DNA from: Clostridia bacterium
GTDB taxonomy: Bacteria; Bacillota; Clostridia; Christensenellales; QAND01
DNA: 64,000 nt
Direction of reading: 5' to 3'
NCBI GenBank assembly: GCA_017439715.1
Contig: JAFSIR010000002.1
Span: forward strand, 1 to 64,000
The position numbers and the translations under genes are program-made. Below, piece after piece: positions 60,800 to 62,842 of the stretch. The notes beneath the pieces were generated by a model. The model was not told the DNA's origin and did no database searches. It saw only the letters and a list, made by a program, of their open reading frames with translations. Within the stretch, counting starts at the first letter, position 1. Every line of letters begins with the position of its first letter.

Positions 60800-61174
60800 A
60801 TGGCGCTGTATCAATCCGGAGAGATGTATTTGGAAACGATCTATGTTTTGGCAAAAACCGAAAACAGGATTCGTTCTTTGGATGTTGCCGAGCATATGGG
60901 GTATTCCAAGCCCAGCGTCAGCCGCGCGGTAAAGCGCTTAAGGGAAGACGGATATATTCTGATGGATGAAGATGGGCTTTTAACCTTAACGGAAAGCGGC
61001 GCTCAGATCGCCGCTAAAATCTATGAGCGGCACACGGTGCTCACAGAGATTCTCATGCGCATTGGGGTGGACCGCAAAACAGCGGCAGACGATGCCTGCA
61101 GGATCGAGCATGTGATCAGCGATGCAGCGTTTAACGCGATGAAACAGCACCTGGCGCAGCACACAAAAGGATAA
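60800..61174 (+). CDS. DtxR/MntR-family metal-dependent regulator, paralogue 2
   Basis: The 124-residue protein is closely similar to the one at 33872 and has the same two-domain form without SH3. Metal-site residues are Met9, Glu12, His78, Cys100, Glu103 and His104. Met and Cys at these places are as in the iron sensor DtxR, whereas manganese-specific MntR has Asp and Glu. So this copy looks iron-type. A bidirectional terminator follows. Its regulated genes are not evident in the window. Confidence 0.88.
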   Translation: MALYQSGEMYLETIYVLAKTENRIRSLDVAEHMGYSKPSVSRAVKRLREDGYILMDEDGLLTLTESGAQIAAKIYERHTVLTEILMRIGVDRKTAADDACRIEHVISDAAFNAMKQHLAQHTKG

Positions 61175-61230: not shown

Positions 61231-61854
61231 TTACTGCGCCAGCTGTCCCGGAAGCTTCAGTTTTTCCTTTGGCGGGAACTGCTTGTCAAACTCCGCGGCG
61301 GCCTGTTCGTTTGCGTATTGCGCCATCGGCTGATAAAACACGCCTTCGATGCCATCGAGGTACCCCGGCTTTAATTCCTTGAGCAGGAAATACGGAACAA
61401 CGGCCTCTCTCGGTTCCCCATCATAGTGAATGTTTTTTTCACTGGCAACGATAAAACCGCTTTTGCCGTAAAATCCAATGTTTCCTTCAAAGCACACGGC
61501 CCCATAACCAAGCGCGGCGGCTTTTTCAAGTGAATAGTCAAGCAGCGCCTTGCCGTATCCCCGGCGCTTAAGATCGTTTGCAATGCAGATCGGCCCCATC
61601 GTCAGCACGGGCACCGCCGCTCCGTCATCAGCGATGATCTGCGCTTTTGTAAAAGCGTTCTGGCCGATGATCCTGCCGTCAAGCTCCATAACAAAAGCAA
61701 GCTCAGGCACAAAGGCAGGATCCTGCCGCAGATGATGGATCAGATAATGCTCCATGCAGCCGGGGCGATACACATTCCAAAAAGAATCACGCACGAGGAG
61801 TTCCACCTCTTTGTGGTCAGCCTCGGTTTCCAAACGGATGATATAATTTTCCAT
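61231..61854 (-). CDS. GNAT-family N-acetyltransferase
   Basis: The 207-residue protein has a GNAT core with the acetyl-CoA loop in GPICIANDLKRRGYGKALLDYSL and the GFYGKSGF motif of strand 7. The C-terminal 50 residues (ELKPGYLDGIEGVFYQPMAQY) are an extension seen in a subgroup of clostridial acetyltransferases. Substrate unknown. AAAGGAG precedes ATG 61854. Upstream lies a roughly 215-base leader with hairpins and its own promoter. Confidence 0.85.
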   Translation of the reverse strand: MENYIIRLETEADHKEVELLVRDSFWNVYRPGCMEHYLIHHLRQDPAFVPELAFVMELDGRIIGQNAFTKAQIIADDGAAVPVLTMGPICIANDLKRRGYGKALLDYSLEKAAALGYGAVCFEGNIGFYGKSGFIVASEKNIHYDGEPREAVVPYFLLKELKPGYLDGIEGVFYQPMAQYANEQAAAEFDKQFPPKEKLKLPGQLAQ

Positions 61855-61879
61855 TTTTTTACTCCTTTGAAAATCAATC

Positions 61880-62070
61880 AAAAAGGGCGGAGACTTTGCG
61901 GATAAAGCAAATTTGCATAAGCCCCCGCTTACGCTGCAGTATCCGGTGCATTATTGTTCTTCAAACAGCATTTACCTCTTTATTTTTTATTTAGCATGGA
62001 GCCGAAACTTGCGTTTCAGCCAATACCCCTTTTTGCGCAGCGGCAGCAAACCCCTTTTGTCCGCTGTTCA
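61880..62070 (-). ncRNA. Candidate structured RNA (independent small RNA or leader of the GNAT gene)
   Basis: A good minus-strand promoter (62076-62105) points into about 190 bases without a gene. The predicted transcript has a hairpin with eight paired bases and a GCAA loop (62001-62020), a second hairpin GCGTAAG/CTTATGC (61915-61934), and complementary outer parts (CGCTGC with GCAGCG; GCGG with CCGC). It ends at a GC-rich stretch followed by TTTTT (61880-61884), as for an intrinsic terminator. The size and rod-like pairing recall 6S RNA, but I cannot show the diagnostic bubble. Confidence 0.4.
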
Positions 62071-62075
62071 TAAAG

Positions 62076-62105
62076 AGTATAGCGTTCTAAAAAGCAAATG
62101 TGCAA
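62076..62105 (-). promoter_or_regulatory. Promoter reading into the candidate RNA and GNAT gene
   Basis: On the minus strand TTGCAC (62105-62100) and TATACT (62081-62076) are 18 bases apart. Confidence 0.55.
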
Positions 62106-62129
62106 GCCTGAAAAAGCAGACCTGCATGG

Positions 62130-62163
62130 ATAAAAACAAAAACCATCCGAACGGATGGTTTTT
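62130..62163 (-). terminator. Intrinsic terminator after tRNA-Ala
   Basis: AACCATCC and GGATGGTT pair around GAAC; on the minus strand the stem is followed by TTTTTGTTTTT. Confidence 0.85.
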
Positions 62164-62165
62164 CT

Positions 62166-62241
62166 TGGTGGAGCATAGCGGAGTCGAACCGCTGACCTCC
62201 TCGATGCGAACGAGGCGCACTACCAACTGTGCCAATGCCCC
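62166..62241 (-). tRNA. tRNA-Ala (anticodon CGC)
   Basis: The cloverleaf is complete. The acceptor GGGGCAT pairs with ATGCTCC and has the G3-U70 wobble that identifies alanine tRNAs. The D arm is GCAC/GTGC, the anticodon stem CCTCG/CGAGG with loop TTCGCAT (anticodon CGC, codon GCG), and the T arm AGCGG/CCGCT with TTCGACT. The discriminator is A73 and CCA is encoded (62168-62166). Confidence 0.95.
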
Positions 62242-62344: not shown

Positions 62345-62842
62345 GTGAAAAGCCGAGTTTACAACGTTCGTTTTCTGGTTACGGGCGCTTTGATCGCCGC
62401 TATATATGTGATCATAACGGGCATTTTTGCCCCGATCTCGTTTGGTTTGGTGCAGCTGCGCATTTCGGAAGCGATGTATATTCTGGCGCTGTTTGAAGCG
62501 GCGGCCGTGCCGGGGCTTACGGTAGGCTGCCTGATTTGCAACCTGTTATGGACGCCGTTTGGATTGATCGATATCGTGCTGGGCACGCTGGCCACAGCGC
62601 TGGGCGTGCTGTTTGTGCGCAAAATGCGGGCGCACCGGACCTTGTCGCTGCTTGGCCCCGTGGTCACAAACGGCCTGCTTATCCCGGTGGTGCTGATCAT
62701 CGGCGGGGTGGAAAGCTCTTATTTATTGGGCGCGGTGTATATCGCCGCGGGCGAAGCGATTGCTTGTTATGGCCTGGGTCTGCCGCTGTGCGAAGCGGTG
62801 GAGCGGGTGTTAAAACAAATAAACAGGAAGAATGGGGATTGA
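62345..62842 (+). CDS. queT: QueT-family transporter (queuosine precursor uptake)
   Basis: The 165-residue protein has about five hydrophobic segments and the family opening FLVTGALIAAIYVIITGIFAPISFGLVQLRISEAMYIL. QueT proteins (COG4708) act as substrate-binding units of ECF transporters, probably for queuosine precursors such as preQ1. GTG 62345 follows GAGAGAGGG. fhs starts eight bases after its stop and may be co-transcribed. No ECF ATPase genes are nearby, as usual for the group that shares a common energising module. Confidence 0.85.
   Translation: MKSRVYNVRFLVTGALIAAIYVIITGIFAPISFGLVQLRISEAMYILALFEAAAVPGLTVGCLICNLLWTPFGLIDIVLGTLATALGVLFVRKMRAHRTLSLLGPVVTNGLLIPVVLIIGGVESSYLLGAVYIAAGEAIACYGLGLPLCEAVERVLKQINRKNGD

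Follow-up and report, generated by a model that had tools for sequence, protein, structure and literature searches.

The region analyzed here (positions 61855-62105, minus strand) is part of a 64,000 nucleotide stretch of DNA, referred to below as the window. It lies between a tRNA-Ala gene (62241-62166, minus strand), which is followed by a terminator identified in a terminator scan (62163-62138, minus strand), and the putative regulated gene, which encodes a GNAT acetyltransferase of 207 amino acids (61231-61854, minus strand; Pfam Acetyltransf_1). The AlphaFold model of the GNAT protein (pLDDT 91) gave E. coli YhbS (4rs2) as the best PDB match (TM 0.73/0.82), while Ard1, Eis and AAC(2') enzymes resembled it less closely. 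On the plus strand, a short DtxR/MntR-type metal regulator of 124 amino acids is encoded at 60800-61174 and a QueT-family transporter at 62345-62842. No Rfam riboswitch was found ahead of the QueT-family gene, and the gene after it is, judged from its translation, presumably formate-tetrahydrofolate ligase-like.

A promoter-like pair (TTGCAC at 62105-62100, an 18 nt spacer and TATACT at 62081-62076) is present on the minus strand, and a leader transcript would start near 62070. The sequence-only reading had called this promoter good. The promoter scan scored the pair as TGCACA/TATACT with 9/12 matches and returned 3 promoter-like sites where 1.5 +/- 1.2 are expected by chance; the pair is thus there, but such sites are little above chance and the promoter on its own is weak evidence, and we regard the leader as presumably transcribed. 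The same reading's description of a region rich in inverted repeats was borne out in the approximately 215 nt between the promoter-like pair and the GNAT start. Although the fold of 62082-61890 gave z = -2.56, this segment includes the -10 box; folding from the likely transcript start gave z values of only -1.68 to -1.70, with 13/200 and 8/200 shuffles equally stable, so that without the -10 box folding of the leader is near chance level. A helix between the -10 box and the SD of the upstream frame described below, seen in the first fold, was rejected because its 5' arm starts inside the promoter. The minimum-energy fold contained a 5' hairpin, GGCTGAAAC-GCAA-GTTTCGGCT (62000-62021, minus strand). 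No convincing terminator was found in the leader ahead of the GNAT Shine-Dalgarno sequence (SD), hence there is no mark of a free small RNA. The U-rich tail proposed earlier as a 3' end does not stop there, as the Us continue into the SD (AAAGGAG, 61868-61862) of the GNAT ATG at 61854.

A DNA search with the whole leader in 60 relatives returned short chance-like matches only and would, by itself, have implied no conservation. Relatives of the GNAT gene were present in 16/61 genomes (own genome counted) and at 77 named loci from several phyla. Conservation became visible when up to 450 bases ahead of 89 GNAT relatives were compared with the leader, which gave weak but consistently placed matches. 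These matches mark a short frame that has its own SD and in most cases starts with TTG; it reads MKNNTLEIVG* or a variant of this, and by inspection occurs in 39/89 of the upstream stretches (one locus counted twice). The window has the corresponding upstream open reading frame (uORF), MKNNNAPDTAA*, at 61964-61929 (minus strand) with a TTG start, and its SD (AAGAGG, 61975-61980, minus strand) aligns to AGGAG of the relatives. The stretch had been described as being without an open frame; with its TTG start and only 11 codons the uORF was perhaps overlooked. Three other frames were dropped, MLFEEQ*, MHRILQ...* and one of 26 codons, MNSGQKGFAAAAQKGVLAETQVSAPC (62071-61991, minus strand), as the alignment backs the TTG frame only. 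The 26-codon frame begins at about the predicted transcript start and is probably due to chance, and no relative of it was seen.

The codons GAT ACT GCA (D-T-A; 61935-61943, minus strand) form the putative stall motif, placed there by column counts and by the position of the accessibility switch presented below, and most relatives have E-I-V/A at these codons. Counted from the acidic residue, which is E or D in 69/69 frames by construction, the next residue was I, L, S or T in 69/69 and the following one V or A in 68/69, and T-L mostly precedes the motif. The stop codon is outside the motif: in several leaders of the RsgA and RNHCP genes introduced below (e.g., L185, L203, L208 and L138) the frame continues with E-I-V or a variant in place, and in L053, L055 and L065 it likewise runs past the usual stop with the motif kept. 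From the uORF start to a GGAGATTG-like anchor the distance was 17, 20, 23 or 26 nt, steps of three, in all 58 anchored leaders of a set of 74, a result that is supportive and not unbiased since the leaders were picked with the frame already in hand. Third codon positions were the most variable (1299 changes vs. 602 and 875), and codons with a single difference comprised 600 synonymous and 784 non-synonymous cases, both being descriptive counts over many related pairs.

In the GNAT relatives three elements come after the uORF, namely segment B, which is SD-like, segment B', which is anti-SD, and the GNAT SD. In the window (all on the minus strand) segment A (CGGATA, 61940-61945) is within the uORF, B (GCGGGGGCTT, 61919-61928) directly follows its stop codon, A' (TATCCG, 61899-61904) is the complement of A, and B' (AAGTCTCCGC, 61887-61896) is identified by covariation with B and by the accessibility model. 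All six A:A' pairs (61940-61945 with 61904-61899) formed in two folds and 5/6 in another, while B and B' form 10 pairs including two G-T. Being anti-SD-like, B' has two possible partners, B and the GNAT SD, and by eye the window B':SD complementarity extends to only about 4 pairs.

Covariation analysis among relatives, a check that the sequence-only reading had suggested, was run and the B:B' hairpin covaries. Over 28 leaders 93.3% of its cells were paired, with both-side changes in 5/9 pairs. As many such pairs were seen in 1/500 shuffles, and 0/500 reached the paired percentage, the count of cells with both-side changes, the further pair types or the covariation score; a control slide by one column retains some signal. 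The window copy carries one of the covarying changes, a C-G in place of a G-C. Beyond shuffles, A was complementary to the B-B' loop in 37/44 GNAT and 8/10 RNHCP leaders, a test which left out six leaders without landmarks and others without a motif match. The RsgA leaders gave 0/8, and in 4/8 A pairs with a segment after B'; A being paired differently there, the off state is not uniform. For the window copy, 6% of shuffles gave an A:loop pairing as strong. The sole minus-strand terminator call within the leader (61934-61915) has a mixed AAATTTGCTT tail, which does not mark an intrinsic terminator for transcription attenuation, and a pure T run looked for directly 3' of the B:B' hairpin of the relatives was absent. 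Leaders L053, L055 and L065 are variants without B:B', in which the uORF extends as MKNNTLE(I/L/T)V...LF*. The closing codons of this longer frame seem able to pair with the GNAT SD (AGAAAGGA), as in a simpler one-hairpin attenuator.

A covariance model, R2, was trained on 27 GNAT leaders with the window left out. In 84.7 kb this held-out search returned 61885-61978 (minus strand) as its sole window match (38.1 bits, E = 5.1e-9). Among the 77 named GNAT loci, R2 matched in 32, always just 5' of the GNAT gene and on the same strand, and 20 of these loci were training members; the same hairpins also gave six weaker echoes on the minus strand, and 45 loci had no match. Conservation beside the same gene, which had been proposed as a test of the region, was thereby found in the form of the uORF/switch leader kept ahead of the GNAT relatives.

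To relate ribosome position to SD accessibility, the RNA downstream of a ribosome was folded, with the leading edge set 16 nt from where the P-site codon begins, and the openness of the SD read. The analysis covered 74 leaders (GNAT, n=51; RNHCP, n=14; RsgA, n=9); L140, L184 and L205, in which no frame or main gene was found, were left out. With the P-site at the acidic residue, mean SD openness was 0.70 for GNAT, 0.54 for RNHCP and 0.56 for RsgA leaders, and two codons further it was 0.23, 0.17 and 0.20, respectively. The mean drops of 0.473 (GNAT), 0.375 (RNHCP) and 0.359 (RsgA) compare with highest means of 0.037, 0.060 and 0.066 in 60 dinucleotide-shuffle sets, counts that are not independent because the leaders share descent. 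The conserved peptide motif thus lies at the point where pausing would set the gene on or off. The window copy showed a drop of 0.44, equalled by 3% of its own shuffles, and a previous analysis of 25 leaders with 100 shuffles agreed on the switch and gave 7-11% for the window copy. Members L060, L121, L053 and L065 showed no switch in the model. Without a ribosome the openness of the window SD was 0.37 or 0.95, depending on the length of GNAT coding sequence folded, so that default repression of the window copy is not firmly predicted.

The leader was then surveyed with model R1 over the order (E <= 0.01; 26/297 genomes) and with R2 over the phylum (15/398 genomes) and class (25/391), both at E <= 1e-4 and with the window genome counted in both. 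The gene after 62 matches was checked, comprising all 45 phylum and class matches minus the two from the window and 19 of the 28 from the order, from which the window match and eight weak ones were left out. GNAT genes followed in 28 cases, either of the window type or of a 40%-identical type, genes for RNHCP-domain proteins in 15, genes for RsgA-type GTPases in 11 and none of these in 8. The last group consisted of three contig ends, three good leader matches that are orphan or rearranged (L189, L153 and L196) and two which look like chance (L145, 24.6 bits; L217, 27.9 bits). RNHCP loci carried the leader in 3/17 and 5/19 cases; as most are leaderless, it is not universal for RNHCP. Named carriers include Selenomonas ruminantium TAM6421 pSRC1 and Pusillibacter faecalis pMM59_01. 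Outside Bacillota the leader precedes rsgA on the Cetobacterium somerae plasmid p2 (31.4 bits); a candidate before rsgA of Peptoclostridium acidaminophilum is weak (12.5 bits), and phages searched with the Selenomonas leader gave no match.

The three gene families are also found joined to each other. A plasmid of Roseburia sp. 831b (NZ_CP135163.1) encodes GNAT and RsgA as one protein of 526 amino acids in one open frame (L218:2986-4566), before which R2 found no leader at E <= 5. RsgA-RNHCP fusions occur in L157 and L225 (L225 by tblastn and open frame only), neither with a credible leader (best 7.4 bits in L157, no match in L225). The RNHCP and rsgA genes overlap on a Vibrio coralliilyticus plasmid, and in L226 a leader match of 20.1 bits is followed by RNHCP and then by RsgA. 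Other GNAT-like genes adjoin a leader-RsgA pair (L213) and RNHCP (L155), which we take as further hints of a shared module.

We consider it highly probable that this region forms the 5' leader of the GNAT mRNA and that its leader peptide controls translation of the gene by attenuation. Conservation, the coding frame, hairpin covariation, position-dependent SD accessibility, the leader shared between gene families and the gene fusions give this reading its computational support. The segments are arranged as uORF (with A as its 3' end), B, A', B' and SD. When the uORF is completed normally, A would pair with A', leaving B in the loop, and/or the terminating ribosome would cover B; B' would then be free to pair with the GNAT SD and the gene would be off. 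A ribosome stalled at about codon 8-9, its P-site on the conserved acidic residue or the one after it, would cover A and expose B, the SD mimic B would capture B', and the true SD would be freed to turn the gene on. By analogy with erm leaders, the conserved C-terminal motif on a chain of 8-9 residues suggests inhibitor arrest at the peptidyl-transferase centre or in the tunnel, a uORF pause at 8-9 residues being typical of macrolide-type arrest on erm peptides. RsgA is a 30S assembly GTPase, and RsgA and RNHCP as downstream genes suggest a link to the ribosome. With the same leader ahead of RNHCP and RsgA-type genes, the genes it controls probably answer stress directed at the ribosome; from the 30S role of RsgA together with the 8-9 residue pause, that stress may be a ribosome-targeting inhibitor, and what the leader senses would be stalled, probably drug-bound ribosomes. 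The stalling itself, its inducer and the substrate of the GNAT enzyme are inferred.

What the uORF senses could instead be slow decoding, as in an amino-acid-starvation or general translation-speed attenuator. This is unlikely, if still a serious alternative, as the model also predicts an open SD for ribosomes stopped at several of the preceding codons, and the E. coli toiL uORF senses many inhibitors through stalls at different codons (PMC12121999). The uORF lacks the run of a single amino acid found in his and trp leaders, its conserved positions form a motif at a fixed chain length of 8-9 residues, and RsgA points towards ribosome stress. It is improbable that the window copy is a decaying remnant, brought by a horizontally moved GNAT gene and no longer regulating. 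The copy is among the more divergent ones (P-D-T-A vs. L-E-I-V), its single-copy switch statistics (3%, 7-11% and 6%) are marginal and the distribution of the gene is patchy, but frame, SD, start codon and stop are all intact, B:B' retains its 10 pairs with the compensatory C-G, and no other place in the window was matched by the held-out model.

The sequence-only reading had also offered a riboswitch leader of the GNAT gene; its regulatory leader stands, but the evidence favours leader-peptide attenuation over ligand binding. That a metabolite exposes the GNAT SD and the uORF is incidental would account for a long structured leader able to sequester the SD and for the B:B' covariation. We judge it very improbable, since the uORF and its SD are the most conserved stretch, the spacing of the uORF varies by threes only, leaders that differ in start codon and stop position retain the peptide motif, and no conserved unpaired pocket exists besides the uORF. 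The Rfam search proposed earlier was run and placed the leader in no family: at gathering score only rRNA and tRNA families were returned, both in the window and in 22 loci with relatives. Below that score, rnk_pseudo and Phe_leader lay on or overlapped the tRNA terminator and freshwater-2 covered mainly the SD region, and there was no match supporting a T-box. A trans-acting 6S-like small RNA with its own promoter, proposed from the promoter-like pair and about 190 structured bases, resembles 6S RNA in length and apparent rod and can be practically dismissed, since RF00013 had no match in 61800-62180 even at E <= 10, the genome has its own 6S RNA on another contig (G000:C23:4607-4791, plus strand, 57 bits), no convincing terminator lies between the leader and the GNAT SD, the end-to-end pairing of the rod relies on upstream bases beyond the conserved element, and the conserved core, a coding uORF and a switch beside the SD, lies in cis and goes with the downstream gene.

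The attenuator proposed here is closest in mechanism to the leader-peptide translation attenuators of erm genes. Leaders of erm genes stall the ribosome at about codon 8-10. In the general ermC mechanism, a stall in the uORF shifts the leader to another pairing that leaves the SD of the main gene accessible (PMC6685928). Similarly, a short uORF with its own SD lies upstream of the genes studied here, and in silico there are mutually exclusive pairings, one of which masks the SD, and a stall site at about the same codon is placed to expose it in all three gene classes. The leader differs from those of ermC, ermB and ermA in its LEIV-type peptide motif, in its SD-mimicking segment B, which is located within the first hairpin's loop, and in having GNAT, RNHCP or RsgA genes downstream, whereas erm genes encode rRNA methylases. 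In cat-86/cat, a short leader peptide controls an acetyltransferase through SD release, but Cat is not a GNAT and both leader peptide and fold differ. The toiL uORF of E. coli topAI-yjhQP frees an SD further downstream once antibiotics that act on the ribosome cause stalling within the uORF (PMC12121999), as proposed for the present leader. It belongs to another gene in another host group and acts with Rho termination, and the likeness drawn here is one of mechanism.

The leader was not found in Rfam or in the full-text literature searched, and these full-text searches, which mostly did not cover subscription papers, likewise returned no paper on RNHCP proteins. No full-text paper was found on RsgA with a leader peptide or attenuation, or on rsgA with upstream frames and antibiotics; the uORF peptide string gave no relevant paper, there was none on a GNAT acetyltransferase under leader-peptide translation attenuation, and further literature searches met only other systems.

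We tentatively propose, at slightly less than even confidence, that this one leader family, which occurs in Bacillota and on at least one plasmid from Fusobacteriota, controls an inducible module for ribosome protection that has so far gone unrecognised. Its members would be an RsgA-type GTPase, an RNHCP zinc protein and a YhbS-like acetyltransferase, and anaerobes of the gut and rumen would use them alone, as fusions or in tandem to counter an inhibitor of the ribosome. The leader would also add a class of stalling peptide, [E/D]-[I/L/S/T]-[V/A] at about codon 8, to the few known. Inducible leaders have pointed directly to the drugs that a gene answers to, and an uncatalogued leader common to accessory RsgA, RNHCP and YhbS-like GNAT proteins, which also fuse with one another, is a testable handle on their roles.
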